From: Sphaerochaetaceae bacterium
Lineage (GTDB): Bacteria; Spirochaetota; Spirochaetia; Sphaerochaetales; Sphaerochaetaceae
Reading direction: 5' to 3'
NCBI GenBank assembly: GCA_024405015.1
Contig: JAKSPE010000002.1
Span: 62,001-126,000, forward strand
DNA length: 64,000 bases
Part shown: piece after piece, positions 2,154-23,120 of the stretch
Numbering within the stretch: position 1 is the first letter of the stretch
How the letters are laid out: every line of letters begins with the position of its first letter
The notes under the pieces: model-generated
Seen by the model: only the letters and a program-made list of their open reading frames with translations
The model's database searches: none
What the model was told of the DNA's origin: nothing
Position numbers and translations under genes: made by a program

Positions 2154-2783
2154 ATGAAGAAAACAATCGCTATTCTTGCTGTTCTGGCTCTTGCACTTGC
2201 TTGCGTATTCGCAGCTGAGACTCACAAGATTACTCTGAGCACAACAATTGATGAAGTCATTCCATCATTCCAGTTTAGATATGGTACAGCTGGTGCTTAC
2301 ACAAACGACGATGCTGATTCAAATGACATCGCATCACAGGCATACTATGGCCAGTATGATGCAACAAATGACTTTTCAGTAGCCGATGCAATCGATACAG
2401 GAAAAGACCTTTCCAAAGAAGACATTTCTGCTGACTTCTATGCCGTTCTTGCAATTGGTGGAAAGCAGGACAACAAGACATATACATTGAAGTTCACAGC
2501 TGGTGCATTCAACACAACAGCTAATCATGTTGATGATCCAACACCTTGCACAAGTTCTTCAATCGAAAGTGTTCTTACAAGCGATTCTCAGTATGTCGTA
2601 GTTTCAGCTGGTGCTGGAAGCGACAGTGCAGACAATGTCAAGTCCTGGAAGATCAAGCTTGTCGGTTCTGCTGCAACATCAGCAATCGATCTTGTCAAGT
2701 TCTCAGCAACATGGGCAAAGAATACTGATGCTGATATGGGCACATTTACAGCCGATGTCACAATGGTTGTAACAGCTCAGTAA
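2154..2783 (+). CDS. Small secreted array protein B
   Basis: A 209-residue protein with a Sec signal peptide (MKKTIAILAVLALALACVFA). The mature part opens with THKITLSTTIDEVIPSFQFRYG, the array motif 'hydrophobic strand, then P-x-F-Q-F'. A central KTYTLKFTAGAF strand matches NTYTLRLNAGGF in protein C and xYTLTVTATDL in D to F. The C-terminus is KFSATWAKNTDADMGTFTADVTMVVTAQ in type (quoted in two parts: KFSATWAKN, GTFTADVTMVVTAQ). B and C form a close pair. Thr codons are almost all ACA, as in the two abundant binding-protein genes of the window, which suggests high expression. AGAGG precedes the start. The function is not recognised. Confidence 0.85.
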   Translation: MKKTIAILAVLALALACVFAAETHKITLSTTIDEVIPSFQFRYGTAGAYTNDDADSNDIASQAYYGQYDATNDFSVADAIDTGKDLSKEDISADFYAVLAIGGKQDNKTYTLKFTAGAFNTTANHVDDPTPCTSSSIESVLTSDSQYVVVSAGAGSDSADNVKSWKIKLVGSAATSAIDLVKFSATWAKNTDADMGTFTADVTMVVTAQ

Positions 2784-2808
2784 TCGATTGTATAAGTTCA
2801 ATGAATGG

Positions 2809-2832
2809 GGACCGGAGAAATCTGGTCCTTTT
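2809..2832 (+). terminator. Terminator after array gene B
   Basis: GGACC-stem paired with GGTCC across a GGAGAAATCT loop, followed by TTTTC. Confidence 0.7.
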
Positions 2833-2902
2833 CATTTTATGGAAAAAATCTCCAATATTGTAAAAAAAATTTTTATCTTAAATTATTATCAATGAAAAAT
2901 TA

Positions 2903-2931
2903 TTGACAGTTGTTGATATCATTGGTAATAT
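2903..2931 (+). promoter_or_regulatory. Array promoter C (divergent type)
   Basis: TTGACA (2903-2908), 17-bp spacer, TAATAT (2926-2931). This -10 is better than in the other members, but the upstream palindrome and the TGGGCATTGG start element are both missing. Confidence 0.75.
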
Positions 2932-2968
2932 CTAGATAGAAAGTAAAATCGGGTAAGGAGGGAGTGTA

Positions 2969-3595
2969 ATGAAGAAACTCTCAATTGTTCTTTTCATTTT
3001 TATTGCTGCACTTCCATCTGTTTTCGCTGCAACCCTTAGTGAAACCCATGAGATTCGTCTCAAAACACGTATTGGTAGTGAGACTCCTGTTTTTCAGTTT
3101 GAATTTACAAGTGGAATGAGATTCCCGAATTCTGATACCAACATTATTACTAACAAGGGTGAAAATGCTTTTGATGCCAACGTTTCATACAATGAATATG
3201 GAACACAGGAGACAGCAATTGAGGTAGAGGACATTTCCAGAAAAGATTTGGATCTGCTGTTTACCGTCTATCTTGCAAATGAGGCAAAGAGCAATAACAC
3301 ATATACGTTGCGATTGAATGCTGGTGGATTTGCAGTCACAAGGTTTGACGTTCCTGGTACCGTGGAACCAATGGATGTTCTGGTTTCTCCTGCTTCTGAC
3401 ATTGATGCGAGAGTTGGAGTCAGAGTCGGGTCGGTCGTGGATGGTTCTAGTATAGACATGTGTTTTAATGGTGCTGCATGTCGAATTGGTAAGTTGGCAA
3501 CATTTGAAGTGCTATATCAGAGGGATGGTACTATTGATCCTTCATTGTCAGGTTATTTTGCAAACATTACATTGGAGATTTCTTCCAGCAATTAA
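2969..3595 (+). CDS. Small secreted array protein C
   Basis: A 208-residue protein with a signal peptide (MKKLSIVLFIFIAALPSVFA). It is related to B: THEIRLKTRIGSETPVFQFEF, a KDLDLLFTVYLA strand, NTYTLRLNAGGF, and a C-terminal GYFANITLEISSSN. It starts after a strong Shine-Dalgarno (AAGGAGG). Codon choice is more mixed (Arg CGT, CGA, AGA; Thr ACC, ACG, ACT) than in its neighbours, it lacks the shared start element and palindrome, and no hairpin terminator is evident after it. It therefore appears to be a member outside the common control, probably less expressed, or an older copy. Confidence 0.8.
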   Translation: MKKLSIVLFIFIAALPSVFAATLSETHEIRLKTRIGSETPVFQFEFTSGMRFPNSDTNIITNKGENAFDANVSYNEYGTQETAIEVEDISRKDLDLLFTVYLANEAKSNNTYTLRLNAGGFAVTRFDVPGTVEPMDVLVSPASDIDARVGVRVGSVVDGSSIDMCFNGAACRIGKLATFEVLYQRDGTIDPSLSGYFANITLEISSSN

Positions 3596-3660
3596 GTGTT
3601 TTATGTAACCGGCATGGAATTTCGTTGTTAAAAAGATATAATAAAACAATGAAATAAATT

Positions 3661-3742
3661 TTTACAAATTTAAAAATAAGTTGTAAAAATTTATTGACAA
3701 TTATAGTCCTTTGGTATAGATTACAGTTGGGCATTGGAAAAA
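3661..3742 (+). promoter_or_regulatory. Array promoter D
   Basis: Left half-site TTTACAAATTT at 3661, again 33 bp before TTGACA (3694-3699); the right half-site is degraded. The -10 is TATAGA (3715-3720) or TAGATT (3717-3722). TGGGCATTGGAAAAA is at 3728-3742. Confidence 0.7.
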
Positions 3743-3763
3743 CATAAAAAAGAGGAAAAAGAA

Positions 3764-4423
3764 ATGAAGAAAGTTATTACAATTCTTGCAATCATGATGA
3801 TTCTGGTTTCTGCAGTATTCGCAGAAGTAGCAGCTGACGCTCACGGTGCAGCTAACATCAACATCAATGTCAACATTGGTGACGAATTCCCAAGATTCCA
3901 GCTTGCAACAAAGACTGGAACAACAGCAATTGTAAGCGATAATGTCGCAGCAAATGCAGGTACCCCAGCAGAGGCAACACTCACTGATGCAAATAAGGCA
4001 CTTCTTACACAGTCTGGAAAGCAGATTGAGGTTGTTTTCTCCATCAATCAGATCAAGAATGCTCGTTGTTTCGATGCTTACACACTCACTGTAACAGCAA
4101 CAGACCTTGTTCTTGTTAAGTCTACAGATGAGTCTGTAAAGAGAGATCTTGCAACAGCTCTTACAGCAGCAACAGATAAGCAGAAATTTACAGTTGTGTC
4201 AGGAACAGCAACACATACTTCATCAGCTGTCGCAGATATTGACTATACTGGAACAGACGAGGATGCAATCTTAATTGATTATCAGGGTGTTCTTGTTGCA
4301 GCAGAAGATGTAGATTCAAAGAGAGTCGAAATTGGAACAGCATCAGTCAAGTGGAATTCCAACATCGATGCTATGTCTGGTGACTACAAGGCAACAGTAA
4401 CTCTCACAGTTTCAGCTCAGTAA
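3764..4423 (+). CDS. Small secreted array protein D
   Basis: A 219-residue protein with a signal peptide ending SAVFA (MKKVITILAIMMILVSAVFA). The mature protein begins with an HGAANININVNIGDEFPRFQL segment (20-residue core NININVNIGDEFPRFQL). It has the FSINQIKNARCF-AYTLTVTATDLVL block shared with E and F, and ends GDYKATVTLTVSAQ. D, E and F are a subgroup of recent duplicates. The start at 3764 follows AGAGGAAAAAG and gives the signal peptide; an upstream ATG would add a charged extension encoded by the conserved leader. Function is unknown. Confidence 0.85.
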   Translation: MKKVITILAIMMILVSAVFAEVAADAHGAANININVNIGDEFPRFQLATKTGTTAIVSDNVAANAGTPAEATLTDANKALLTQSGKQIEVVFSINQIKNARCFDAYTLTVTATDLVLVKSTDESVKRDLATALTAATDKQKFTVVSGTATHTSSAVADIDYTGTDEDAILIDYQGVLVAAEDVDSKRVEIGTASVKWNSNIDAMSGDYKATVTLTVSAQ

Positions 4424-4447
4424 TAGAAATAATAAATGCAAAATAGA

Positions 4448-4473
4448 GGCGCTTCTTCGGAGGCGTCTTTTTT
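4448..4473 (+). terminator. Terminator after array gene D
   Basis: GGCGCTTC-TTCG-GAGGCGTC with two G-T pairs, followed by TTTTTT. Confidence 0.8.
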
Positions 4474-4479
4474 ATTATG

Positions 4480-4943
4480 CGCCTTTAAGACCGTGAGCCG
4501 GCGAAAGCCGGATCACAAATAAACCACCTGTTCTGCAGGTGTGGTAGGCCGAAGGGCTCTACCCAAAAAAAGCCTTACCTCTGGTAGAATGTGAAGTGTT
4601 CAAGTCCACATAAATACCAAGGAGGTAAGGCGAATGGCAAACAAACGTGACGAACACAGCCACACGAAGTGGCTATGCAAGTATCATATCGTATTCACGC
4701 CGAAATATCGACGCAAAATCATCTACGGATCGCTTCGGGGAGACATAGGGAAGATTCTGAAGGCGCTGTGCCAGTATGGTAGGGCTGAACGCTGAGACGA
4801 TAAGGAAATGCATCAGGAAACAGAAGATTGCTGACGTATTCCTGGACAAGCTGACGAGAGAGAGGAATGACCTCTTTGAGAAGTGGCTTATAACCGATGC
4901 AGTACATACCGCGTCTTTTAGATGTGTTTTTGATTTTTGGTAG
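4480..4943 (+). pseudogene. Decayed IS200/IS605-type element: left end and broken TnpA
   Basis: A coding start at 4634 (after GGAGGT) gives MANKRDEHSHTKW-LCKYHIVFTPKYRRKIIYG, the N-terminus of single-strand HUH (Y1) transposases, with stop at 4793-4795 after 53 residues. In another frame, 4782 onward reads GLNAETIRKCIRKQ, which matches the C-terminal region of the same family, so the middle, including the HUH motif and tyrosine, has been deleted with a frame change. Upstream, 4491-4560 contains subterminal hairpins (CCGGC-GAAA-GCCGG and an ACCACCTG/CAGGTGTGGT stem) typical of IS200 left ends. The element sits between the terminator of D and the promoter of E. Confidence 0.8.
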
Positions 4944-5042
4944 ACAAGCACATGATTTGATTTGGAATAGAGCTCAGTTTGAGTCCGGAACTCGTGGAGG
5001 AAGAGGGGAGAGTGACGTGATGTCGATTATTGATTAAAAAAT

Positions 5043-5127
5043 TTTACAAATATAGTTTAAAATTTTGAAAAAAATAATTGACAACAACTAGTATTCTACT
5101 GTACTTTATATGTGGGCATTGGAAAAA
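5043..5127 (+). promoter_or_regulatory. Array promoter E
   Basis: Degenerate palindrome TTTACAAATATAGTTT from 5043, TTGACA (5078-5083), TACTTT (5102-5107, 18-bp spacer), TGGGCATTGGAAAAA (5113-5127). Confidence 0.7.
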
Positions 5128-5150
5128 TATATAAAAAAGAGGAAAAACAA

Positions 5151-5822
5151 ATGAAGAAAGTTATTACAGTTTTCGCAATCATGATGGTTTTGGTTTCAGC
5201 CGTTTTCGCAGCAGAGGCAGCTTCTGATGCTCATGGTACAGCTAAGATTAACATTGACACTCTTATCACAGCACAGTATCCAGCATACCAGCTCGAGGCA
5301 AAGACAGTTAGTGCTGGTGCAATCACTACAGCAACAAGTGACGTCGCAGGTACACCAACTGCAGGTCTTGTTACCATTACAGACGATACCCTGCTTAAAG
5401 CAGATGCAACAGTTACATTCGCAATCAATCAGATTAAGACATCCAAGTGTTTCCACTCATATGATCTTACAGTTACAGCTACAGACCTCATTCTCATGAA
5501 TGCAGGTAAGACAGCTGCTGCTACAAAGACTGATGTTGGAATGGATGATGATGAGTTTGCTGCTGCTGTTAAGTCTTTTGCTGTAAACGATTCAACTCCA
5601 ACAATTACTGCTGCAGACAACATCGCTAGTTTGGCACAGGGTGTTGCTCGGTTCTCTGCTGAAGAAAACAAGCTTACAGCTAAGTATCTTGGTGGTATCA
5701 AGATTGCTGATGGCAAAGTTGAAGAAGTTGGAACATTCTCTTGCACATGGGCAAAGAATGAGCTGGCAATTCCTGGTCCTTATCAGGCAACAGTAACACT
5801 TACAGTTACAACAACTGTCTAA
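5151..5822 (+). CDS. Small secreted array protein E
   Basis: A 223-residue protein, the longest of the array. Signal peptide MKKVITVFAIMMVLVSAVFA is nearly the same as in D. The mature part has AKINIDTLITAQYPAYQLEAK, FAINQIKTSKCFHSYDLTVTATDLIL in two parts as in D (FAINQIKTSKCF, YDLTVTATDLIL), FSCTWAKN, and a C-terminal GPYQATVTLTVTTTV. The start at 5151 is preceded by AAGAGG. It is flanked by two IS200 remnants. It is a close relative of D and F; function unknown. Confidence 0.85.
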   Translation: MKKVITVFAIMMVLVSAVFAAEAASDAHGTAKINIDTLITAQYPAYQLEAKTVSAGAITTATSDVAGTPTAGLVTITDDTLLKADATVTFAINQIKTSKCFHSYDLTVTATDLILMNAGKTAAATKTDVGMDDDEFAAAVKSFAVNDSTPTITAADNIASLAQGVARFSAEENKLTAKYLGGIKIADGKVEEVGTFSCTWAKNELAIPGPYQATVTLTVTTTV

Positions 5823-5846
5823 GTACTTATCAGAGATAAGGGTAGG

Positions 5847-5872
5847 CTGCCGGAGAGATCCGGCAGTTTTTT
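5847..5872 (+). terminator. Terminator after array gene E
   Basis: CTGCCGG-AGAGAT-CCGGCAG followed by TTTTTT. The same hairpin sequence ends array gene F. Confidence 0.9.
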
Positions 5873-5877
5873 GTATA

Positions 5878-6118
5878 AACGAAAACCTCCACATCGTATG
5901 GAGGTTCCGGAGAGCTTTAGCTTTGCCCAAAACAAAAAGAATCTCCATAATCGAAGGTGCGACCCGCCAGTTGCACCGAAGATTAAGGAGATTCCTATGA
6001 ACGAGGAAAGTTTAGCTCATACGAAATGGAATTGCAAATACCACATAGTGTTTGCACCGAAGTACAGACGCCAGATTATTTATTAACGAGATCCTCCAGT
6101 ATGGTGAGAAGAATGTCT
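5878..6118 (+). pseudogene. Second IS200/IS605 TnpA fragment
   Basis: The frame 5997-6086 (after AAGGAG) encodes 29 residues, AHTKWNCKYHIVFAPKYRRQ being the diagnostic part, then stops. A further frame, NEILQYGEKNV, follows. This is the N-terminal tip of a Y1 transposase, distinct in sequence from the fragment at 4634, so it comes from a different element. Upstream, 5882-5908 and 5936-5995 hold inverted repeats (AACCTCCA/TGGAGGTT; AATCTCC/GGAGATT) as expected for a left end. Confidence 0.75.
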
Positions 6119-6148
6119 GACTTTTGTATAAACCCTTTTTATTATTTT

Positions 6149-6230
6149 TTTACAAATTTGTAAAAAATATTTGAAAAATAATTGACATCAAAAGCATACT
6201 AGTGTACTTTACACATGGGCATTGGAAAAA
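6149..6230 (+). promoter_or_regulatory. Array promoter F
   Basis: Perfect TTTACAAATTTGTAAA (6149-6164), TTGACA (6182-6187), 17-bp spacer, TACTTT (6205-6210), TGGGCATTGGAAAAA (6216-6230). Spacing is identical to promoter B. Confidence 0.8.
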
Positions 6231-6251
6231 AAGAATTAAGAGGAATAAGAA

Positions 6252-6878
6252 ATGAAAAAGATTATTACTATTCTTGCAGTTATGCTTATCGTTGTTTGTG
6301 CTGCATTTGCAGATGCAACAGAACCAAATGGTGATGCAAAGATTCTTGTCAACGCAAAGATTGGTAACCAGTATCCAGCTTTCCAGCTTCAGGCTGTTGG
6401 TGTTGCAGATGCAAAGGGATCTATTTCCGGATCTGCTGATAAAGCTCTCAAGGGAGAGACAAAGGATGCTGTTACTATTACAGAAGATGCTCTTCTTGGA
6501 GGAAACGTAACAGTCAATTTTGCTATCAATCAGGTCAAGATGTCCAGAACAAAGGTCGGATATGTCCTTACTGTTACAGCAACAGACCTTAAAATGGTGA
6601 ATGATGCTTCTGGCGCAGCTTATACAGGTGCAATTGATGCAAATAAGAAGTTCGAGGTTTCTGGAAATCCTACTATCACAAAGGGTACAGCAGGTGAGTA
6701 TACATATACTGAGGCTGCAAATGCTCTTACCGTTAGATACAATGGCAAGAAGGTTGATGCCTCAACAGCTAATGCTGTTCAGCTTGGAACTTTCTCTTGC
6801 GTATGGCAGCAGAATGCTGATGCAGATGCTGGTGACTACCAGGCAACTGTTACACTTACAATTACATCCGCAAGCTGA
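6252..6878 (+). CDS. Small secreted array protein F
   Basis: A 208-residue protein with signal peptide MKKIITILAVMLIVVCAAFA. The mature part has AKILVNAKIGNQYPAFQLQA, FAINQVKMSRTKVGYVLTV, TATDLKMV, FSCVWQQN, and ends GDYQATVTLTITSAS. It belongs to the D/E/F subgroup. AAGAGGAATAAG precedes the ATG. Function unknown; predicted exported beta-rich protein. Confidence 0.85.
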   Translation: MKKIITILAVMLIVVCAAFADATEPNGDAKILVNAKIGNQYPAFQLQAVGVADAKGSISGSADKALKGETKDAVTITEDALLGGNVTVNFAINQVKMSRTKVGYVLTVTATDLKMVNDASGAAYTGAIDANKKFEVSGNPTITKGTAGEYTYTEAANALTVRYNGKKVDASTANAVQLGTFSCVWQQNADADAGDYQATVTLTITSAS

Positions 6879-6904
6879 CAAAAGCTTTAGAGTAAAACAA
6901 GAGA

Positions 6905-6928
6905 CTGCCGGAGAGATCCGGCAGTTTT
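6905..6928 (+). terminator. Terminator after array gene F
   Basis: CTGCCGG-AGAGAT-CCGGCAG followed by TTTTATTTTG. Confidence 0.85.
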
Positions 6929-6975
6929 ATTTTGTCCAAATTTTTGAAATTTTCTTTTTAAAAATTTTCTTTTCG

Positions 6976-7039
6976 ATTTGTAAAAATAATTGACAAAAAG
7001 AAGTGAAATGCTGTAATTTACAACTGGGCATTGGGAAAA
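6976..7039 (+). promoter_or_regulatory. Array promoter G
   Basis: Only a right half-site, GATTTGTAAA, remains and it lies much closer to the -35 than elsewhere. TTGACA (6990-6995), TAATTT (7014-7019), TGGGCATTGGGAAAA (7025-7039). Confidence 0.65.
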
Positions 7040-7060
7040 CATAAATTAAGAGGAACGAAA

Positions 7061-7630
7061 ATGAAGAAAGTTATTTCAATTCTTGCAATTCTTATGGTTA
7101 TCGCATGTGCAGCATTTGCAGCAACTGGAGATTTGCTTAACATCAATGCAAAGGTTCCAGCAACAGATCCTATCTACTCTCTTAAGGGTGGACTTTCAGA
7201 TTCAACCGGTAAAGTAGCAACTGGTACAGCAGCAAATGGAACAATCACAACAGATGTTGATATTTCTACAACTGATATCTACATCTATGTCCAGGTTTTC
7301 CAGACAAATAAGTCAAAGACACTCAAGAGTGGAAGCCTTACTTTGGAAGGAACAGCACTTGAATATCTTACCAGCTCTACAGCCGCTCCAGCTGCTTCAA
7401 ATGCAACAGCCGGTTCAACAGATAAGGCAACTAATCATTATAAGGTTACAGCAGCTGTATCAGGAGCAACAGCAACATTCGCAGTTGAATACGATGGAAA
7501 AAACGTTGCAGAAAACTCTGTAATCGGTTCCGCTCTCTTCAAGTGGACTCACAATGACGAACTTGAGGTTGCTGATGGTGTTGAAAACTTCTACACAGCA
7601 ACAATCACACTTACTTACACAGTACAGTAA
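7061..7630 (+). CDS. Small secreted array protein G
   Basis: A 189-residue protein with signal peptide MKKVISILAILMVIACAAFA. The mature part starts ATGDLLNINAKVPATDPIYS-LKGG, very like protein H (DTLKITAKVPQEKPEFIMKGG in parts). It then has a VYVQVFQTNKSKTLK-type strand, FKWTHNDE, and a C-terminal FYTATITLTYTVQ. G and H form a subgroup. The start at 7061 follows AAGAGGAACG. Function unknown. Confidence 0.85.
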   Translation: MKKVISILAILMVIACAAFAATGDLLNINAKVPATDPIYSLKGGLSDSTGKVATGTAANGTITTDVDISTTDIYIYVQVFQTNKSKTLKSGSLTLEGTALEYLTSSTAAPAASNATAGSTDKATNHYKVTAAVSGATATFAVEYDGKNVAENSVIGSALFKWTHNDELEVADGVENFYTATITLTYTVQ

Positions 7631-7651
7631 GAAATAATTGTAATAGAGATT

Positions 7652-7681
7652 GAGGCTACCTTCGGGTAGCTTCTTTTTTTT
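7652..7681 (+). terminator. Terminator after array gene G
   Basis: GAGGCTACC-TTCG-GGTAGCTTC followed by seven or more T. Confidence 0.9.
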
Positions 7682-7799
7682 ATCTGTGGGCCATCTGTTT
7701 ATTGCCAACCGGATCTGTTTTGGTTGCCCGTTTTGCTCCCTGCCAAAGTCCTGGTAATTCAGATTGTCAAATCATAGTAAAAATCTATGTGAAAAATCT

Positions 7800-7880
7800 T
7801 TTTCAAATTTGTAAAAATAATTTTAAAAAATAATTGACGAAAAAATTTTATCTAACTATACTGTCATTGTTGGAAATGGA
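7800..7880 (+). promoter_or_regulatory. Array promoter H
   Basis: Near-palindrome TTTTCAAATTTGTAAA (7800-7815), 34 bp before TTGACG (7834-7839); 17-bp spacer; good -10 TATACT (7857-7862). The start element is degenerate (GTCATTGTTGGAAAT). From 7682 to 7800 nothing else is recognisable. Confidence 0.7.
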
Positions 7881-10513: not shown

Positions 10514-10537
10514 TTATTGTTTCATTTATTGTGTCAT
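10514..10537 (+). repeat. Two tandem 12-bp repeats upstream of the ATP-binding regulator
   Basis: TTATTGTTTCAT (10514-10525) and TTATTGTGTCAT (10526-10537) abut exactly, differing at one base, and are followed by a TATAAT-like box near 10540. Short-period repeats also precede the related genes at 16214 and 21598. Confidence 0.6.
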
Positions 10538-10562: not shown

Positions 10563-11522
10563 ATGTTTGAAAGTGAGATGTCCTACTTCTATTCCAAACT
10601 GACTTTGGTAAATCAGGTTTCTCCGGTTCAGGATCTGACATTTGACTACATGACAGAACAGTACAGACGTAAAGGTTATGATGTTGGGGATAATCTTCTA
10701 GTCCAGTTGCAGCTTCTGATGCCAAGTGGAGAATACAACTATTTGGCTTACCTTCTCTCTGACCAAAACAGCCTCTATATCCAATATGCTCGCTATGCAA
10801 CAGATGATGTGTTTGATCTTGTAGAGCGCAAGGCTTTTACAAACCAGTCTCTGCTCAAGACTGCGCATGAACTCTATGATTTTCTGCAAAGCCATAACAC
10901 AACCTATTCACGGATACTTCCAACTGGACGTCTGGATCTGGAGAAGGTGAATTCCACAGCCCTCAGAGAGATTGTGACAAATGCGCTTGTTCATAACGAT
11001 TACAGAAAGGGTGGGCTTCCAACGTTCGAAGAGTTCACAGACCGAATGGAAATCTCTTCATATGGTGGTCTTCCGAATGATGTGACACCAGATGATTTCT
11101 TCAATGGTTATTCCCTTCCTGTGAACCCGCAGCTTATTCGAGTATTTCGAGATCTTGGACTTGCAGAGAGTCTTGGAACGGGAATCCGAAGAGTTCTTCA
11201 TTTCTATCCAAGAGACATCTTTCTATTCTCCTCAAATTTCCTTCGAGTCTCTTTGCCATTTTCATCTCCAGAAGATTTGAGAAAAGATGGAAGTGGAAAG
11301 CCAAAGACCGTGTTGGAACTTTTGAAATCCAGTCCTAATCTGACAATCAAGGAACTGTCCCTTGCACTGGGGGTCTCCGTATCAACCGTCAATCGCGAAA
11401 TTGCCAGATTGAGTGCAGAAGGAGCATTGTTCAGAATCGGATCAAAAAAGACCGGCTACTGGAATGTTGAGGATTCTTGTGATTATTCTGTGGCTGCTGA
11501 GACCGTGAAGGAATATAGGTAA
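10563..11522 (+). CDS. ATP-binding winged-helix regulator, RecG-C/COG2865 type, lacking the AlbA domain
   Basis: A 319-residue protein. The central part (about 110-230) matches the histidine-kinase-like ATPase domain of COG2865 proteins: STALREIVTNALVHNDYRKG, the box DRMEISSYGGLP, and the GLAESLGTGIRRVL loop. A C-terminal winged helix follows (KPKTVLELLKSSPNLTIKEL, then VSVSTVNREIARLSAEGAL). Family members normally carry an AlbA_2 domain first, as the 432-residue relative at 16214 does; here the protein opens after that domain, so it is either a short natural form or an N-terminal deletion. Shine-Dalgarno GAGG precedes the start. Probable autoregulator or defence/stress regulator; the target is unknown. 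Confidence 0.75.
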   Translation: MFESEMSYFYSKLTLVNQVSPVQDLTFDYMTEQYRRKGYDVGDNLLVQLQLLMPSGEYNYLAYLLSDQNSLYIQYARYATDDVFDLVERKAFTNQSLLKTAHELYDFLQSHNTTYSRILPTGRLDLEKVNSTALREIVTNALVHNDYRKGGLPTFEEFTDRMEISSYGGLPNDVTPDDFFNGYSLPVNPQLIRVFRDLGLAESLGTGIRRVLHFYPRDIFLFSSNFLRVSLPFSSPEDLRKDGSGKPKTVLELLKSSPNLTIKELSLALGVSVSTVNREIARLSAEGALFRIGSKKTGYWNVEDSCDYSVAAETVKEYR

Positions 11523-15008: not shown

Positions 15009-16025
15009 GTGAGGGTTGGGATCATTGGATGCGGTTCCATTGTGCGTAGCCGCCATGCCGTCGAGTTTTCGAACAACAGCCATGTGACGCTTGCTGGTTT
15101 TGTCGGTTTTGTTCCAGGTCATGCACAGCAGCTTGCAGCTCAATATGGCTGCACAGCCTATGACAGTGTCGATGCAATGCTTTGCGATAAGAGCATCGAT
15201 GCCGTATCTGTTTGTACATCCAATGCATTGCACGCAGAAGTTTCTATCAAAGCTCTTCGTGCAGGAAAGCATGTGCTTTGTGAAAAGCCTATGGCAACAA
15301 GCCTTGCAGAATGTGAGGCCATGCTTGCAGAAGCCCACAAGGCGAAGCGCCGTCTTTTGATTGCGCAAAACCAGCGCATGGACCTTGCCTATCAGAAGGC
15401 CCGCGACATGATTGCCTCAGGAAAGCTGGGAAAGGTTCTGTCGTTCCAGAGCATGCTGTGTCATGGTGGCCCTGAGCGCTGGGGTGTCAAGACCGACGGT
15501 GATACCTGGTTCTTCCGAAAAGACGCTGCAGCCTTCGGTTCTATGGCAGATCTTGGTGTGCATATGATTGATGTGCTTCGCTTTGTTTTGGATGATGATG
15601 TCTCAAATGTCTATTGCAACATGAATGTATTGGATAAGAGACTTCAGGACGGAAGTCCGATTGATGTGGATGACAACTCCATTGGGATTCTGCACTTCAA
15701 AGGCGGAGCCGTTGGTTCTGTGACCACAAGCTGGACCTGCTACGGCACCTTTCTGAGCCAGACGACACTGTTTTGCCAAAAGGGTGTGATCAAGATCAAC
15801 TGTGATCCGGATTTCCCTGTGATTGTCTGTCACGATGGCGGGCAGGAGGAGAAGTTCACCGTCGAAAGCTGTGAAAATAATAGCGGTGTGATTGATGAGT
15901 TTGTTGAATCTATAACCTCTGGTCGACCTAGCATTCTGGATGCCGATAGGGTACTAGGCTCCATGAAAGTGGTGTTTGCAAGTGTAAAGTCCAGCCAAAG
16001 TGGTAGAGTGGAACTCTGTAATTAA
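15009..16025 (+). CDS. Gfo/Idh/MocA-family oxidoreductase
   Basis: A 338-residue NAD(P)-dependent sugar or cyclitol oxidoreductase. The N-terminal Rossmann fold starts MRVGIIGCGSIVRSRH (GxGxx). The family hallmark HVLCEKPMATS (EKP, with the catalytic Lys) is near residue 97. The C-terminal domain has VHMIDVLRFVL with the GxHxxD-type segment (LGVHMID). It starts with GTG after GGGGAG. The substrate cannot be told from sequence. It follows the outer-membrane-like gene by 26 bp and may share its transcript. Confidence 0.9.
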   Translation: MRVGIIGCGSIVRSRHAVEFSNNSHVTLAGFVGFVPGHAQQLAAQYGCTAYDSVDAMLCDKSIDAVSVCTSNALHAEVSIKALRAGKHVLCEKPMATSLAECEAMLAEAHKAKRRLLIAQNQRMDLAYQKARDMIASGKLGKVLSFQSMLCHGGPERWGVKTDGDTWFFRKDAAAFGSMADLGVHMIDVLRFVLDDDVSNVYCNMNVLDKRLQDGSPIDVDDNSIGILHFKGGAVGSVTTSWTCYGTFLSQTTLFCQKGVIKINCDPDFPVIVCHDGGQEEKFTVESCENNSGVIDEFVESITSGRPSILDADRVLGSMKVVFASVKSSQSGRVELCN

Positions 16026-16073
16026 TAATTATTTATAATAAAACAAAATACAAAGAAACGTAATATAAAGCGG

Positions 16074-16158
16074 TGTGAAAAGCGGTGTGAAAGTGTTGTG
16101 AAAAGCGGTGTGAAAGTGTTGTGAAAAACTTAATAAAACGTTGTGAAAGTGTGTAGAA
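16074..16158 (+). repeat. Iterons TGTGAAA, 10-12 bp period
   Basis: TGTGAAA starts at 16074, 16086, 16097, 16109, 16120 and 16142, with a variant TGTAGAAA at 16152. Units alternate GCGGTGTGAAA and GTGTTGTGAAA, giving a 23-bp dimer period near one or two helical turns. TATAAT follows at about 16185. These are likely binding sites for the product of the gene just downstream. Confidence 0.75.
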
Positions 16159-16213
16159 AACTTTGCTTTTCCGTTGAATGAGTGTATAATAAAGATCGAG
16201 GTTTGCAGGTAAT

Positions 16214-17512
16214 ATGAAGATAAACATCGATTTCCCGGTCGAAGATGAGTTCTATGAGTTCAAGACTTCCTTGTCTGAGTTGGATAAAGGCATCGAAGCT
16301 ATTGCTGCCATGCTTAACAAACATTCTAAGGCAGAGGTTTTCTTTGGAGTTGCTAACGATGGTGAAGTTTTGGGATTGAAGGGACAAATTGGTCCGGAGA
16401 CAATCAAGAAGGTTGAGACACGAATCTCTGAAATTCTTAAGCCTGCGATTGTTCCTTTCGTTATCTTTGAGGATTATGACGGGGATAAAGTCATTCATGT
16501 GAGTGCAAAAGGAAACAGAAAGCCTTACTCGAGTTCTGGTGATTATAGGATAAGAGTTGGAAGCTCAAACAAAAAGATTGATCCTGAATTGCTTGGTGAA
16601 CTATTTTTTGATTCTGAATCATCTTCTTTGGAGTCCATTGAAAGCATTAACCAGGATCTCACATTCAACATATTGAAATACCACTATGTGAAGAATGGAC
16701 TTACCATCAATGAAGAGAATTTCTATCGAAATGCAGGGTTGAAGGTAAATGGAAAGTTCAATATGCTCGCGGAGCTTCTTGCCGATGAGAACAATGCTTC
16801 CATCAAGGTTGTTCGCTTTTCCGGATATGACAAGACCAAGATGGTTTCCAGAAATGAATATGGATTTAAATGTCTGCTTGCATCAATGCAGGAGGCAAAC
16901 GATTATGTGCTGTCTTTGAATGAGACAAAAGTCGATGTGGAATCTGGGCTAGCCAGAAAGGAGATTAGGCTCTTTGACTCTCATGCCTTTGAAGAGGCTT
17001 GGACAAATGCGTGTATCCATAACAAATGGGTCCGAAATGTCCCTCCTGCAATATATATTTTTGACAATCGTATCGAGATCGTCTCTACCGGTGGATTGCC
17101 TTTTGGCTATACCAAAGAGGATTTCTACAGTGGTGTTTCAAGGCCGATCAATAATGGACTGTTCAAAGTCATGGGTCAGTTGAACATGATTGAGCAGACA
17201 GGACATGGAAACCTTGTTATTGTCGATCGGTATGGAAAGGATGTATTTGACATTGCTGACAGCCACATTACCGTAACAATTCCATTTGCTTTTGCGCCTT
17301 CGATGAAGCAGGTGGATGTGAACGGTTTGACACCTATTCAAGCAAAAGTTCTGATGGCTATAAAAGATAATCCTACATGCACAACAAAGGATTTGTCTGT
17401 TTACTGTGGGATTGGTACGACTAGAGTCGGCGAAGTGACAAAGTCGTTGAAAGAACTTGGAAAAATCGAGCGCATCGGAGGAGCTAAAGGCGGATATTGG
17501 AAGGTCTGCTGA
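16214..17512 (+). CDS. AlbA/Schlafen-type ATP-binding winged-helix regulator (COG2865)
   Basis: A 432-residue protein with full domain order. An AlbA_2 (Schlafen-like) domain is at about 1-125 (EDEFYEFKTSLSE, GVANDGEVLGLKG, PYSSSGDYRIRVGSSN). A GHKL-like ATPase segment is at about 250-350 (HAFEEAWTNACIHNKW, DNRIEIVSTGGLPFG, EQTGHGNLVIV). A C-terminal winged helix is at about 370-432 (TTKDLSVYCGIGTTRVGEV). Such proteins are annotated as putative transcriptional regulators; some are defence-associated. Six or seven iterons lie upstream, so autoregulation is inferred. AT-rich codon use and an isolated position suggest an acquired gene. Confidence 0.82.
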   Translation: MKINIDFPVEDEFYEFKTSLSELDKGIEAIAAMLNKHSKAEVFFGVANDGEVLGLKGQIGPETIKKVETRISEILKPAIVPFVIFEDYDGDKVIHVSAKGNRKPYSSSGDYRIRVGSSNKKIDPELLGELFFDSESSSLESIESINQDLTFNILKYHYVKNGLTINEENFYRNAGLKVNGKFNMLAELLADENNASIKVVRFSGYDKTKMVSRNEYGFKCLLASMQEANDYVLSLNETKVDVESGLARKEIRLFDSHAFEEAWTNACIHNKWVRNVPPAIYIFDNRIEIVSTGGLPFGYTKEDFYSGVSRPINNGLFKVMGQLNMIEQTGHGNLVIVDRYGKDVFDIADSHITVTIPFAFAPSMKQVDVNGLTPIQAKVLMAIKDNPTCTTKDLSVYCGIGTTRVGEVTKSLKELGKIERIGGAKGGYWKVC

Positions 17513-17556
17513 TATGAATTCTGATTGATAACTGACTTACGAAGAATTAGGCCTCG

Positions 17557-17870
17557 TGCTCATGTGTATGGGTTGATGCATAGCCTGCTGCATGCTTCCC
17601 CTTCGGGACCGCAGCCGGCCAAAGACCGGCGCAGGGCTATCCTGCCCGCGCGCTCGTGGCCCTCGGCTTCTAGAACGCACAGGCTATGACACAACCAATC
17701 CACAATCACACAGCATATGGCATATGAGATAGAGAAAACGCCGTACTTGATGTCAATCGCCGGGACCGATGGGACCGCCGTACTCAATGCGCACGCTGGT
17801 ATCGCTGAGCACGAAAAGGAACGAACAGCTTAAACGAAAGGAGTGTCACAGATTCATCTGCAACACTCCC
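17557..17870 (-). repeat. 314-bp GC-rich repeat, copy 1 (inverted relative to copy 2)
   Basis: Nearly identical to the reverse complement of 22667-22980. The core 17579-17688 is bounded by CATAGCCTG and CAGGCTATG, which can pair, and contains several GC-rich hairpins (CCGGCC-AAAGA-CCGG; GCAGG-GCTAT-CCTGC). At its 17840-17870 end, on the minus strand, GGAGTGT...ACACTCC then TTT forms a terminator that ends the ankyrin gene. The rest of 17513-17897 holds no gene. A frame SVRIEYGGPIG is kept in both copies but has no convincing start. Confidence 0.85.
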
Positions 17871-17897
17871 TGTGTTTATGCGTTTCAAGCAAAGGAC

Positions 17898-18407
17898 TCA
17901 AAGACCGAGCTGCTTGAGGATAGTGATGATGTATGGTCTCTTCTCTCTGCGAGCATACTCCATGACATTGTGACCCTGCCAGTCGCAGATTCTGATGTCA
18001 GCACCGCATGTGATGAGCTGTGAGAAGATTCTTGTGTTATCGTTCTGGAGAACTGCCATGATCAGTGGAGTCTCACCAAGATAGTTTCTTGCATTGATGT
18101 CAGCACCAGCTTCGATGAGAGCTGCAACGACCTTTGGGTTGGAGCACTTGTTTGCTGCAAGGTGAAGAGCGTTTGAGCGATACTTTGGCTCGACAGCGAA
18201 CAGGTCGGCACCTTCCTTCAGAAGAGCCTTGAGGACGACGACATGAGTGTTGTACTGTGCTGCAAGCATGAGAGGGCTCATTCCCCACTCATTTGTGCAG
18301 TTGACATCCGCACCCTGTCTGATGAGGGTATGGATTTCAATGGCCTTGGTTGCGTCAACAGCGGCAGCAAGCAACTTCTTGTTAAGTGTTTTTTGCTTAT
18401 TTGTCAT
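17898..18407 (-). CDS. Ankyrin-repeat protein
   Basis: A 169-residue cytosolic protein made almost entirely of about four ankyrin repeats: IHTLIRQGADVNCTNEWGMS-PLMLAAQYN, LKALLKEGADLFAV...NALHLAANKC, VAALIEAGADINARNYLGET-PLIMAVLQN, FSQLITCGADIRICDWQGHN. The first repeat begins near residue 17. It would bind a partner protein; none is suggested by neighbours. A TATAAA/TAATAT box lies 5-9 nt upstream of the ATG and no Shine-Dalgarno is evident, so the leader is very short. It ends in the terminator hairpin contained in repeat copy 1. Confidence 0.88.
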   Translation of the reverse strand: MTNKQKTLNKKLLAAAVDATKAIEIHTLIRQGADVNCTNEWGMSPLMLAAQYNTHVVVLKALLKEGADLFAVEPKYRSNALHLAANKCSNPKVVAALIEAGADINARNYLGETPLIMAVLQNDNTRIFSQLITCGADIRICDWQGHNVMEYARREKRPYIITILKQLGL

Positions 18408-18588
18408 GTTGATTTATATTATTCCTTTTTGTGATTTGATTTACTGAAACCAATTATTTCAGAATTCTGAGAACGTGTAAAGATTTCCACAAGGCCGTTT
18501 CGCAAAAAACCTTTTATGTTTTCTCTTTATTACGTGGTATATTTGAATTATAATCGCAATAATAACCACCGCAAAATGGAGGATTGCC

Positions 18589-19680
18589 ATGATACCTCAT
18601 GAAATTATCAGAAAGATGCCGAAGGTTGAACTTCATGACCATCTCGATGGAGGACTCAGAACTTCCACCGTCATTGATCTTGCTCGCAAATACGACGTGG
18701 CGCTTCCGCATTATGAGGAGTCTTCTCTCCAGTCCTGGTTCGATGAGGGCTGTAGGCTCAAGAGCCTTACGCTGTACCTCAAGACCTTCGCGGTGACAAA
18801 TGCGGTGATGCAGACAGAAGAGTCTCTAAGGCGAGTGGCCTATGAAGCGGTTTTGGATTGGAAACTGCAGAACATCGTCTATGGCGAAATTCGCTTTGCT
18901 CCGGTACTTCATACCGCCAACGGCCTTACTCTTGACCAGGTGGTGCAGGCAGTGCTTTCCGGCCTTGAGGATGGCAAGCGGGAAACTGGGGTTCATTTCG
19001 GCCTCATCCTTTGTGCCATGCGAAACCAGAGTGCCAACGTGAGTCTCGATATCGCAAAGCTTGCCGTTGCCTATCGCGACAGGGGAGTCGTCGGCTTTGA
19101 TATTGCAGGTGATGAGAGTGGAAACCCTCCAAAGGCACACCTGGATGCCTTCCAGTACATCCGAAACAAGAATTTCAATATCACCATCCATGCCGGTGAG
19201 GCCTTTGGACTGGATTCCATCTGGCAGGCCATTCAGGTCTGTGGTGCACACAGAATCGGCCATGGTACACGCCTTGTCGATGACATGACGCTGGACGGAT
19301 CGCGCATCGAGTCCATGGGAGACCTTGCTCACTTTGTGCAGGACAAGAGAATTCCTCTTGAGATGTGCCTCTCCAGCAACGTCGGAACAGGGGCTGCCAA
19401 GGATTTCTCCAGCCATCCGTTCCCGGTCTTCTTCCGAAACCACTTCCGCGTAAGTCTTTGCACCGACAACAGACTTATGAGCAACACCACCCTCACAAAG
19501 GAGATGGAACTTGCTGTTGAGCACTATGGTTTGAGCCTGAAGGAACTGGAGAAGCTCAGCGTCAACGCCATGAAGAGTGCCTTTGTGCACCAGGAGGAGA
19601 AGCTTTCACTGATCTATGAGACCATCAAGAAGCAGTGCGCTGATCTCAGAAAGGAGTACGGCTACTCGGATTGGAACTAA
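18589..19680 (+). CDS. add: Adenosine deaminase
   Basis: A 363-residue metal-dependent hydrolase of the purine salvage pathway, converting adenosine or deoxyadenosine to inosine or deoxyinosine. Zinc-ligand and catalytic motifs are in place: KVELHDHLDGGLR (residue 10; HxH), ITIHAGEAFG (His and catalytic Glu), CGAHRIGHGTRL (catalytic His), and SLCTDNRLMSNTTL (metal Asp). Length is normal. A GGAGG Shine-Dalgarno lies 7 nt before the ATG. It is located between the two inverted 314-bp repeats. Confidence 0.95.
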   Translation: MIPHEIIRKMPKVELHDHLDGGLRTSTVIDLARKYDVALPHYEESSLQSWFDEGCRLKSLTLYLKTFAVTNAVMQTEESLRRVAYEAVLDWKLQNIVYGEIRFAPVLHTANGLTLDQVVQAVLSGLEDGKRETGVHFGLILCAMRNQSANVSLDIAKLAVAYRDRGVVGFDIAGDESGNPPKAHLDAFQYIRNKNFNITIHAGEAFGLDSIWQAIQVCGAHRIGHGTRLVDDMTLDGSRIESMGDLAHFVQDKRIPLEMCLSSNVGTGAAKDFSSHPFPVFFRNHFRVSLCTDNRLMSNTTLTKEMELAVEHYGLSLKELEKLSVNAMKSAFVHQEEKLSLIYETIKKQCADLRKEYGYSDWN

Positions 19681-19723
19681 TCTGTTATAGACAGAGAAAA
19701 CGGATTGAATTAGACTTGATGCC

Positions 19724-21421
19724 ATGGGTGAAGTAAAAATCAAGTGGATTCACATCTTTAATGTCATATTGGCAATCGCCATTGCCATCGTGGTGGGAGT
19801 TCTGTTTGTATCCGTGCAGCATTTCAACTCCGATCCGGCCTATGCCAAAAGTGAGTCCGTGACCCAGAATGTCAATGACGGCTGGTACCAGATTTCAGAC
19901 GATGGTACCATTTCGAAATTCGACGATTTCAGCCGTAGACTCGACATCAACGAACTTACCCTGAGCAGAATCTTCATCTTCGGTATGGATGAGGAGCGCG
20001 ACGCGCTGCGATTCAAGGCCTATTACAGCGCTGTTGAAGTTTATCAGGATGGCATTCTCATCTATTCCCATGGCAGTATCGATGATGTCAAAAGCGGCAC
20101 CATCCTTGGTGTCAATGAGTGCATTGTCCCACTGAACATCTACTATGGAGAAGCTTCCGAGATTGAGGTTCACCTTATCTCCAATATGACCATCAAAATC
20201 AATCCTTTCTTCTTCGGAAAAACGGGAGACTTCGTAACCGAAAAGTTCGGTGATGCCCTTATCACCACCTTGTTCTCCATTTCCCTGATTGTCATTTCTC
20301 TGATCATGCTGGTATTTGCCTTCATCGGAAGAAAGCGACTGAAGTTCTCCTTTGATTATTACTATTTCGTCACATTTCTTGTCTTTGTATCCATTTGGGC
20401 CATTACAGATACGCAGCTTCTTGGTGCTTTGGGTGTTACCTCTGGAATCGTCAGCATCCTTTCGTATGAATGCTTTGCTTTCATGATGCTGCCGTTCATG
20501 GTTTACATGTACTATTCAAATACGCGACTGAGAACCGTTGACCTTTGTATGGTCATTCTGCTGTTTGCGAACTTCATCATCGTCAATGTGTTGCATTTCG
20601 CAAAAGCCCTGAATCTGGTCCAGTCGGTTCTCTCTTCACAGATTCTCATTACATTGAGTCTTGGACTTGTCATTTTCCAGTCTCTGTACTCCTTCATCAA
20701 GGATAAGGATCTGCATTCCATCGTCATGACAACCAGCGTCATTCTGGTTATGGCTGGCGCTGTTGTGCAGCTGATTGATTTCTATGGCGTAAACAGATTC
20801 AACAGTACAGATTTCCTTTTGATTGGCATTCTTCTGTTTGTTGTTCTTCAGGTTGGAAGTCTTCTTTCTGGTGTGTTCAAACTCATCGATGAAGGTCGTA
20901 TGGCAAAGGACTATCTGAATATGGCAATGACAGACCCTCTGACAGGTCTTGGAAACAGACGAGGCCTGGATGCCTACATTTCCAGCATCGCCAAAAGTCC
21001 GACACCGTTCTACAGACTCGGTTGTATCGTCTGTGACCTCAACGATCTCAAGAAGACAAACGATGTCTATGGCCACGATGTCGGTGACCGCCTTATCAAG
21101 GATTTCGCAGATTGCCTGCAGGTTTGTTTTGAGAACCGCGGAAAGGTCTTCAGAACGGGTGGTGATGAGTTCTACATCATCTTCAGTGATGTTGAGGTGG
21201 ATATGTCTGCCATGATGAGAAGACTGTCCATTTGTCTTGACGGTTCTAACGTCACAGCCGAGTACAAGATCTCTTGCTCACGTGGTTGCTACGCCGATTA
21301 TGTTGCAGCCAACAACGAGGATGCCGTCTGGGACATCATCAAGTTCGCCGATGCTGAGATGTACAAGATGAAGAAGGCTGATCGCGCCAAGAGAAGAGTG
21401 GACGAGCCTTCTGAGGAGTAA
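19724..21421 (+). CDS. Membrane diguanylate cyclase with extracellular sensor and 7TM-type region
   Basis: A 565-residue protein. One membrane segment is at about 8-30. An extracytoplasmic sensor follows (about 35-180), with the look of a 7TMR-DISM extracellular domain. About seven membrane helices lie at 185-390. A GGDEF domain is at about 400-555. The active-site motif is intact (FRTGGDEFYIIFSD), as are DPLTGLGNRRGLDAY and CDLNDLKKTNDVYGHDVGD, so it should make cyclic-di-GMP. The product-inhibition I-site RxxD before GGDEF is missing (ENRGKVFR). TAGACA-17 bp-TAGACT ends 7 nt before the ATG with no Shine-Dalgarno, a predicted leaderless start. Confidence 0.9.
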   Translation: MGEVKIKWIHIFNVILAIAIAIVVGVLFVSVQHFNSDPAYAKSESVTQNVNDGWYQISDDGTISKFDDFSRRLDINELTLSRIFIFGMDEERDALRFKAYYSAVEVYQDGILIYSHGSIDDVKSGTILGVNECIVPLNIYYGEASEIEVHLISNMTIKINPFFFGKTGDFVTEKFGDALITTLFSISLIVISLIMLVFAFIGRKRLKFSFDYYYFVTFLVFVSIWAITDTQLLGALGVTSGIVSILSYECFAFMMLPFMVYMYYSNTRLRTVDLCMVILLFANFIIVNVLHFAKALNLVQSVLSSQILITLSLGLVIFQSLYSFIKDKDLHSIVMTTSVILVMAGAVVQLIDFYGVNRFNSTDFLLIGILLFVVLQVGSLLSGVFKLIDEGRMAKDYLNMAMTDPLTGLGNRRGLDAYISSIAKSPTPFYRLGCIVCDLNDLKKTNDVYGHDVGDRLIKDFADCLQVCFENRGKVFRTGGDEFYIIFSDVEVDMSAMMRRLSICLDGSNVTAEYKISCSRGCYADYVAANNEDAVWDIIKFADAEMYKMKKADRAKRRVDEPSEE

Positions 21422-21479
21422 AACTCCCAATTCCGATGATCTATCAATTGAGCATTTCTTGGGTTTTGAACTGGAAAAA

Positions 21480-21574
21480 GTTATAGCCAGTTATAGCCAG
21501 TTATAGATGATTTTTAAAGTTATAGCCAGTTATAGCTAGTTATAGATTGAAAAATCAGTTATAGTCAGTTATAG
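21480..21574 (+). repeat. Iterons GTTATAG, 10-bp period in three clusters
   Basis: GTTATAG starts at 21480, 21490, 21500, then 21519, 21529, 21539, then 21558, 21568. Spacing within a cluster is exactly 10 bp and between clusters exactly 19 bp, so all copies lie on nearly the same DNA face. The ATPase gene follows directly (AAAGGCGG then ATG at 21598). These are likely operator sites. Confidence 0.85.
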
Positions 21575-21597
21575 TTGAATCAGAAAGGCGGTATAGC

Positions 21598-22638
21598 ATG
21601 GACAATCCTTTTTCACTTTCATTTGGAACCATTCCACAGAAATATATCCAGAGACCTTCTGACTTGAACCTGATCCTTGATGAGTTCTCTGCCGAGATCC
21701 CATCAAATCATGTCCGAATCATCACCGGTGTCAGAGGATCCGGAAAGACTGTCCTTCTTACAGAACTTGGAGTAACGCTTCGCTCCAGAAAAGAGTGGGT
21801 GGTTGTTGAGGTGAATCCGGAAACCGATATCATGGATGACCTGGTCTCCAAGCTCTATAACCTGGAGGACGTGAAACCGCTGTTCACGAATCTGAGTGTC
21901 ACGTTAGGTTTCTCTGGAAGTGGTGTCTCCTTTGCAAACAGCCCTGTTCTTCCAACCAGTGATGTGATTGTTGAAAAGATGCTTGAGATTCTCAAACGCA
22001 AGGGAAAAAGGCTGATGATTTCATTGGATGAGGCTGTCAACAATGCCTATGTAAAGAAGTTTGTCCATTCTTTCCAGATTCTACTCAGAAAAGAATATCC
22101 TGTTTTTCTTGTCATGACGGGCCTGAGTGAGAACATCAGTAACCTTCAGGATGACAAGTCGTTGACCTTCCTTTATCGAGCCCCAAAGCTGTATTTGGGT
22201 TCATTGAGTCTGCCGATGATCTCAGATGTCTATCAGTCTGTGTTCTCCTTGGAAAAGGAAGTCGCAAACAGAATGGCGATTCTCACAAAGGGATATCCGT
22301 TTGCGTTTCAGGTGCTGGGATATCTGAAATGGGAAAGCAAGGATTCCTCTTTGGATGATCTTCTCAAGAAATATGACTTCTATCTATCTGAGTATGTGTA
22401 TGAGAAGATATGGTCTGAGCTTTCAGAAAAGTGCAGGCTGGTTCTCTCTGTCTTCAAGAATGACCAACCTCGAAAGGTCCAGGAGATACGAGACAGCATC
22501 GGATGCACATCAAGCCAGTTTTCCACTTATCGAAAAACTCTACTGGGAAAGGGCCTTGTTGAAGAATCTGATTATGGCTACCTCAGGCTTTCTCTGCCTA
22601 GGTTCTGCGACTTCATCCAGAATATGCTTGAGTGGTGA
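21598..22638 (+). CDS. AAA/STAND-type ATPase with C-terminal winged helix
   Basis: A 346-residue protein. Walker A is IITGVRGSGKTVLL (about residue 45) and Walker B is KRLMISLDEAVNN (about 142). A sensor-like VFLVMTGLSENI and an arginine-containing FLYRAPKLYLGSL follow. The last 80 residues form a winged helix (RKVQEIRDSIGCTSSQFSTY, then RKTLLGKGLVEESDYGYL). This layout matches the archaeal-type ATPases annotated as ATP-binding proteins of unknown role, often in defence or mobile contexts. Eight GTTATAG iterons directly upstream suggest the protein regulates its own gene. The terminator after it is part of repeat copy 2. Confidence 0.8.
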   Translation: MDNPFSLSFGTIPQKYIQRPSDLNLILDEFSAEIPSNHVRIITGVRGSGKTVLLTELGVTLRSRKEWVVVEVNPETDIMDDLVSKLYNLEDVKPLFTNLSVTLGFSGSGVSFANSPVLPTSDVIVEKMLEILKRKGKRLMISLDEAVNNAYVKKFVHSFQILLRKEYPVFLVMTGLSENISNLQDDKSLTFLYRAPKLYLGSLSLPMISDVYQSVFSLEKEVANRMAILTKGYPFAFQVLGYLKWESKDSSLDDLLKKYDFYLSEYVYEKIWSELSEKCRLVLSVFKNDQPRKVQEIRDSIGCTSSQFSTYRKTLLGKGLVEESDYGYLRLSLPRFCDFIQNMLEW

Positions 22639-22666
22639 TTTGCTGACCCTCGATAGCCAAAAGAAT

Positions 22667-22980
22667 GGGAGTGTTGCAGAATGAAACTGCGACACTCTTT
22701 TAGTTTAATCAGCTCGATCATTTTCGTGCTCAGCGATACCAGCGTGCGCATTGAGTACGGCGGTCCCATCGGTTCCGGCGATTGACATCAAGTTCAGCTT
22801 TTTCTCTATCTCATGTGCCATATGCTGTGTGATTGTGGATTGGTTGTGTCATAGCCTGTGCGTTCTAGAAGCCGAGGGCCAAGAGCGCGCGGGCAGGATA
22901 GCCCTGCGCCGTCTTTTGGCCGGCTGCGGTCCCGAAGGGAAGCATGCATCAGGCTATGCATGACCCATACACATGAACAC
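22667..22980 (+). repeat. 314-bp GC-rich repeat, copy 2
   Basis: Inverted partner of 17557-17870. It starts with the ATPase-gene terminator (GAGTGTTGCAG...CTGCGACACTC then TTTT) and runs through the GC-rich hairpin core to TGCATGACCCATACACATGAACAC. In both copies the element lies immediately 3' of a gene and in the same orientation relative to it. The interval 22639-23146 has no gene. Confidence 0.85.
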
Positions 22981-22991
22981 GTGAGTTGAAG

Positions 22992-23029
22992 CACCGCATG
23001 AAACCCGTTTTTCAAGATTTCATGCGGTG
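22992..23029. other. Strong isolated hairpin
   Basis: CACCGCATGAAA and TTTCATGCGGTG form a perfect 12-bp stem with a 14-nt loop, just beyond repeat copy 2. No T-run follows, so it is not an obvious terminator; it could mark an insertion end. Confidence 0.6.
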
Positions 23030-23087
23030 AAAATTCCGCATAGGACCTGAAATAAGAAAAAAAGTCGGAACTTTTTACCACTTCAAA

Positions 23088-23120
23088 TAAAAAAGGGATC
23101 ATTGCATATGCAACAATCCC
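23088..23120 (-). terminator. Terminator after proS
   Basis: On the minus strand GGGATTGTTGCATATGCAATGATCCC (stem GGGAT/ATCCC with inner TTGCAT/ATGCAA) is followed by TTTTTTATTT. Confidence 0.85.

Follow-up and report, generated by a model that had tools for sequence, protein, structure and literature searches.

The window, i.e. the whole 64-kb stretch of DNA analysed here, contains an intact gene for an ATPase preceded by an array of short repeats (Table 1). The heptamer GTTATAG starts on the + strand at positions 21480, 21490 and 21500, then at 21519, 21529 and 21539, and finally at 21558 and 21568. The first-pass annotation had described eight copies in a 10/10/19 rhythm; both positions and spacing proved exact (10, 10, 19, 10, 10, 19 and 10 bp). 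Over both strands of the window 14 matches to GTTATAG were found against 2.66 expected, a number reached by none of 100 shuffles, and 8 of the 14 fall inside 95 bp. TRF reports the array as 2.5 copies of a 39-bp period, and the ATPase ORF begins 23 bp past the last copy. When the search was extended to the whole genome, the unit pair GTTATAGNNNGTTATAG (two units 10 bp apart) was present without mismatch at this array only. With up to 2 mismatches it had two scattered matches elsewhere, fewer than the 13 of a reversed control pattern, and the whole-genome pattern search gave no second GTTATAG array. No Rfam family was detected in 15900-23100. By arithmetic rather than measurement, units within a cluster lie on about the same face of the DNA, because 10 bp is nearly one turn at the 10.5 bp per turn taken here; the same arithmetic rotates the next cluster by about 70 degrees at each 19-bp step.

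Table 1. Position of the features of the window, with the observation on which each assignment rests
Feature	Position	Strand	Basis or remark
Array of GGTGTGAAA units, 11-12 bp spacing, before GHKL gene 16214-17512	16067..16163	+	
SLFN_AlbA_2 + HATPase_c_4 + MarR-like wHTH protein, 432 aa, GHKL-type	16214..17512	+	Pfam
Putative private operator array: eight GTTATAG units, 3+3+2 clusters	21478..21576	+	Unique in genome
Candidate sigma-70-type promoter TTGAAA-N17-TATAGT	21547..21575	+	Consensus match 10/12
346-aa ATPase: NB-ARC/Orc-like P-loop domain, helical lid, C-terminal winged helix	21598..22638	+	Intact ORF
Walker A, residues 44-51, GVRGSGKT	21727..21750	+	Most residues invariant, 61 homologues
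Walker B, residues 140-145 (D144, E145)	22015..22032	+	Alignment of 61 homologues
Predicted recognition helix, residues 305-317	22510..22548	+	305, 309 and 310 covary with repeat unit
Wing hairpin, residues 321-331	22558..22590	+	Tip residue Y326 covaries with unit position 3

The protein had been read as a Walker ATPase joined to a C-terminal winged helix, and this description holds: the GVRGSGKT motif is present, and in the AlphaFold model (pLDDT 90.6) a helical lid follows the P-loop domain, and the chain closes with the predicted winged helix (helices at 294-301 and at 305-317, strands of the wing at 321-325 and at 328-331). D144 and three residues of the recognition helix, Y311, R312 and L315, are invariant in the 61 homologues. 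Pfam yields sub-threshold matches only (ATPase_2, AAA_14, nSTAND and NB-ARC). With 28.9 bits (E 1.2e-6) the match to ATPase_2 (PF01637) does not reach the gathering cut-off of 33.2 bits; judged by sequence similarity, the protein is a relative of this family that stands outside its membership by the cut-off. PADLOC and NCBIfam gave weak P-loop matches and nothing more. The best fold matches to the model are archaeal 2QEN and 2FNA, plant NLR, CED-4 and Apaf-1 chains and Orc2, and the best Foldseek matches are the Orc1/Cdc6 structures 1FNN, 2QBY and 1W5T. SSO1545 (2FNA) and PABY2304 (2QEN), two archaeal proteins of the ATPase_2 type, are the closest whole-chain folds (Z 21.6 and 22.8 over 311-315 residues); they too have a P-loop domain, a lid and a winged helix, with an identity of 13-14%. 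The CED-4, Apaf-1 and NLR chains match across most of the model, which follows the STAND/NB-ARC domain order (P-loop NBD, helical domain, winged helix).

The candidate promoter of Table 1 is the only one of sigma-70 type in the array region; it is kept as a candidate because 0.7 such matches are expected there by chance. The last two GTTATAG units are placed in its spacer and over its -10 box, the -10 being inside the eighth unit. The term "iteron array", used in the first-pass annotation, finds no support in the replication sense; the repeats are laid out like an operator that spans the promoter of the gene itself.

Comparison with homologues generalizes this organization. Absence of repeats upstream of homologues had been named as an observation that would speak against a module; in 159 of 178 homologue loci we observed arrays that exceed the 99% level set by dinucleotide shuffles, and arrays were also present in 56 of 59 held-out homologues. 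The first nine upstream regions have the same rhythm in other letters, e.g. GTTGTAAAAG, AACAGTAAAG, AATTATAAAG and GATAAAAAT, and the units as a whole vary widely (102 distinct cores) while the rhythm is kept. In 88 loci with spacing left unconstrained, steps of 10 bp (252) and 19 bp (114) dominate between successive copies. The 19 loci below threshold include weak arrays and loci truly devoid of one (e.g. L047, L065 and L198). As a control, 265 upstream regions of neighbouring genes were scored, and 10 were positive. By coordinates, nine of them belong to divergently transcribed genes whose upstream region runs into the array of the ATPase gene, and the remaining one is an AGAAC microsatellite (5-bp), so that 1 of 256 independent neighbour upstreams is positive. 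An AGAAC pentanucleotide microsatellite was seen in L064 at about 3950-4030, downstream of the ATPase gene. These data bear on the idea of a functionless tandem repeat prone to slippage. Tandem arrays do grow by slippage, and that of L064 includes a long pure 10-bp run; yet the rhythm, including its 19-bp step, is kept across widely differing sequences and phyla, neighbouring genes lack arrays, and the units covary with the protein. We find this explanation scarcely credible; single loci excepted, it is refuted by the homologue survey. Selection for differing units among paralogues of one genome was also considered and rejected: 111 of 112 pairs differ, but as expected from protein distance.

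The overlap with a promoter recurs in the family. A TTGACA-like -35 followed by a TATAAT-like -10 was recognized in 106 of 159 loci compared to 52 of 159 in mononucleotide shuffles, so part of these calls is due to chance. Where a promoter is recognizable, a unit overlaps the -10 in 93 of 106 loci, and the first unit past the promoter start is most commonly found 7-8 bp from the start of the -35.

To relate the array letters to the protein, the units of the 159 loci were set in one register of 12 positions, in which positions 3-6 and 8-10 vary and position 7 is nearly always T. Covariation was scored as the mutual information of each protein column with each unit position, after correction for column background. 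Leading pairs are residue 326 with position 3 (z 9.4), residue 309 with position 6 (z 6.5) and, in fourth place, residue 305 with position 4 (z 5.9). In the model, residues 305 and 309 are exposed in the opening turns of the predicted recognition helix, and residue 326 sits at the wing tip. The correspondences are distributed as follows: Y326 is accompanied by G or C at position 3 in 86 of 88 cases and R or H326 by A in 45 of 52; S309 by A at position 6 in 105 of 109 and N309 by G in 19 of 24; S305 by T at position 4 in 63 of 76, K305 by G in 10 of 12, and T305 by C or A. The window conforms to all three, with S305, S309 and Y326 facing T4, A6 and G3. Once protein identity is controlled, the leading columns are 309, 335, 260, 310, 305 and 326. 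When units were permuted only inside clusters of 55% identity, every pair examined reached p=0.0005, the lowest value that the test allows. Lineage effects partly remain, because columns 335 and 260 covary strongly from outside the helix and wing; some columns of the ATPase domain also have high z. A sister-pair test ranks residue 309 with position 6 first, and the identity-controlled version was used because pairs of unequal divergence confound this test.

Rules fixed beforehand were then applied to 56 held-out genes with less than 90% identity to the training set. Position 3 fell into the class predicted from residue 326 (Y with G/C, others with A/T) in 51 of 56 genes (p=2e-9); all 14 held-out genes with Y326 had G or C. 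The base at position 6 was right in 48 of 56 from residue 309, compared to 43 by always choosing A, and that at position 4 in 39 of 56 from residue 305, compared to 33 by always choosing T. The rule for 326 is well supported, that for 309 fairly and that for 305 weakly. Each ATPase very probably binds and controls its own promoter, as can be inferred from unit letters that change with the DNA-reading residues across 215 relatives. It could be argued that some other factor reads the repeats, or that they control translation from within the mRNA leader, the correlation with the protein being phylogenetic: at many loci transcription includes part of the array, and some covarying columns are outside the winged helix. 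We consider this very improbable, since helix and wing hold four of the six best columns (309, 305, 326 and 310) under the identity control and the signal is kept within close clusters, the 326 rule predicts held-out genes, and units extend upstream of the -10 into the promoter spacer.

The arrays are also private to their genes. Searched in six genomes, the CAGTAAA pair had all of its 14 matches at an ATPase gene; one of these belongs to a second small array in L075, about 300 bp upstream. There, at about 2680-3000 of L075, the second CAGTAAA array is followed by an ORF of 41 codons, which encodes a hydrophobic peptide with a single span and immediately precedes the ATPase gene. As this array stands before the ORF, one operator code may serve two genes in L075. 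The TTATGAA pair, searched in eight genomes, gave 30 matches, of which 26 are in the ATPase gene's own array, one is inside a coding gene and three precede no recognizable ATPase. A solo TTATGAA array of two pairs, with no recognizable ATPase gene behind it, was seen in L325 (G1174:C1, about 1663375-1663419); it may be a relic or a second target. No other target array or regulon was found for GTTATAG in its own genome, for CAGTAAA in the six genomes or for TTATGAA in the eight. The designation "regulator" given earlier is consequently retained for the gene itself, with its private array and winged-helix covariation, and dropped as far as other targets are concerned.

The array, its rhythm, its privacy, its covariation with the protein and its promoter overlap are computational observations; binding of the ATPase to the array we infer from the sequences. 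The array is probably a private operator, through which each ATPase would read and repress its own promoter. According to this proposal, every 10-bp unit would accommodate one C-terminal winged helix of the ATPase whose gene follows, with unit positions 4-6 (and 9) read by the start of the recognition helix and position 3 by the wing tip. Several protomers would sit side by side within a cluster, one per helical turn, with clusters set off by 19 bp. With units in the promoter spacer and on top of the -10 box, bound protein would most likely keep the ATPase gene from being transcribed; autorepression rather than activation is suggested by this placement. By analogy with the NB-ARC/STAND and Orc/Cdc6 folds, ATP or ADP in the NTPase domain could set the position of the winged helix and thereby tune cooperative binding. 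Alternatively the ATPase might bind the array mainly to activate or assemble, as an ATP-driven oligomer on DNA acting e.g. in positive feedback or as a sensor platform. The fold matches to NB-ARC apoptosomes, resistosomes, Orc/Cdc6 and TnsC, mostly oligomeric workers, are in line with this, as are 6-9 sites, more than simple repression needs, and the lack of a second target in the genomes searched. We nevertheless hold it to be unlikely, as protein bound in the spacer and over the -10 should exclude RNA polymerase.

The distribution of the gene is patchy. Among relatives of the window's genome it is present in 9 of 101 genomes, and in a class-wide sample it is rare (12 of 391 genomes at E<=1e-20). 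The family is large, found mainly in gut Firmicutes and common in gut Lachnospiraceae: in the family of L060, a Lachnospiraceae MAG, matches at E<=0.001, many of them weak, were obtained in 122 of 397 genomes, with up to five copies per genome. No recurring neighbour or partner gene of the homologues was found apart from near-identical synteny. A phage origin was examined and discarded, because the viral contigs matched by the pattern encode no relative and a phage collection gave one fragment of 57 residues. Replication iterons have to be weighed here too, the gene and its array then being a small replicon or its remnant and the ATPase an Orc/DnaA-like initiator. The Orc/Cdc6-like fold, the repeats directly upstream of the gene as in plasmid rep genes, and some homologues on plasmids of Bacillota and Actinomycetota agree with this reading; but nearly all copies are chromosomal and solitary, without partner genes and up to five per genome, and an operator accounts for the promoter overlap. 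Its probability appears minimal. Possible roles of this solitary and patchy gene are those of a defence sensor, a stress switch and a selfish module. A broader proposal, for which we see the balance as even, is that of a mobile, self-insulated module: a minimal NB-ARC/Orc-like ATPase whose own promoter array would be its only DNA target, with a readable residue-base code, more than 100 operator specificities, a fixed 10/19-bp rhythm and hence a fixed assembly geometry on DNA, and a winged helix, regulatory in NLR proteins, that still reads DNA.

No description of the family or its arrays was found in the open-licence papers searched, and comparison with known systems underlines several differences. 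NB-ARC/STAND proteins (Apaf-1, CED-4 and plant NLRs; Z 13-20) share the order NBD, helical lid and winged helix; unlike them, the window ATPase totals 346 aa and its model ends with the winged helix, without a sensor superstructure (TPR, LRR or WD40 repeats) or effector domain. The DNA-binding domain of MalT is separate and C-terminal, whereas in the window ATPase the winged helix of the NTPase module itself covaries with DNA. MalT is described as a STAND transcription factor switched by ADP/ATP (PMC4381067). The likeness to Orc1/Cdc6 lies in AAA+ plus a DNA-binding winged helix, and archaeal Orc1-2 is described as a non-initiator that regulates DNA-damage-responsive expression (PMC9738581); the window ATPase differs in probably having no replication link and, as putative target, its own promoter array, the letters of which vary between genes. 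In type Ia plasmid partition, the ATPase ParA is presented as regulating its own operon by assembling cooperatively on the promoter (PMC8465637). It has another ATPase fold, the window ATPase has neither a partner ParB nor a centromere, and no family-wide private array is known for ParA. In IniR, a regulator of mycobacteria, the ATPase domain resembles SSO1545 (PMC5760070); IniR differs from the window ATPase by its 818 aa, its MalT-like sensor domain, its separate SdiA-like DNA-binding domain and its action on iniBAC. As operator and protein adjoin, the sequence by itself reveals the putative operator of each member, and the specificity code of the winged helix and the co-change of regulator and operator are therefore directly testable, in hundreds of natural parallel experiments on one DNA-reading domain. 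Through this family, the winged helix that binds DNA in Orc/Cdc6 may be connected to its counterpart in apoptosomes and plant resistosomes, which does not bind DNA; the family could also supply sets of mutually insulated repressors.

Two further genes of the window had been grouped with this one as ATPase/winged-helix genes bearing repeats of their own. The grouping does not stand: 10563-11522 (HATPase_c_4 + HTH_11 by Pfam) and 16214-17512 are GHKL-type HATPase_c_4 proteins, not Walker ATPases, and their differing Pfam folds indicate that they are unrelated to the 346-aa P-loop ATPase. The two 12-bp repeats at 10514-10537 are at chance level, 53% of shuffles being as good, while the repeats noted at 16074-16158 form a real array before an intact gene (Table 1). 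The "recurring self-contained module" is thus valid within the ATPase family (159 of 178 loci with arrays) and not across the three genes, which belong to unlike families. Among the nearest relatives of 16214-17512 with enough upstream sequence, 5 of 7 exceed nearly all shuffles in repeats, with other letters (shuffles matching: 0/60 for L243, L246, L247 and L249; 7% for L245), and distant relatives are mostly without such arrays. The AlbA_2-HATPase_c_4-wHTH family, of which the genome holds five members, may thus follow a like design with a period of its own, 11-12 bp in the window gene and these nearest relatives. A non-coding element of about 315 bp occurs in two inverted copies, 93% identical, at 17555-17870 and 22667-22981, just downstream of the AlbA_2/GHKL gene and of the ATPase gene; its 151-bp core has 26 full or partial matches in the genome. 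Between the two repeat-bearing genes, 17898-18407 (-) encodes a 169-aa ankyrin-repeat protein. Several direct repeats of 50-170 bp, 76-88% identical, are located at 2039-7845, in the first 8 kb of the window.
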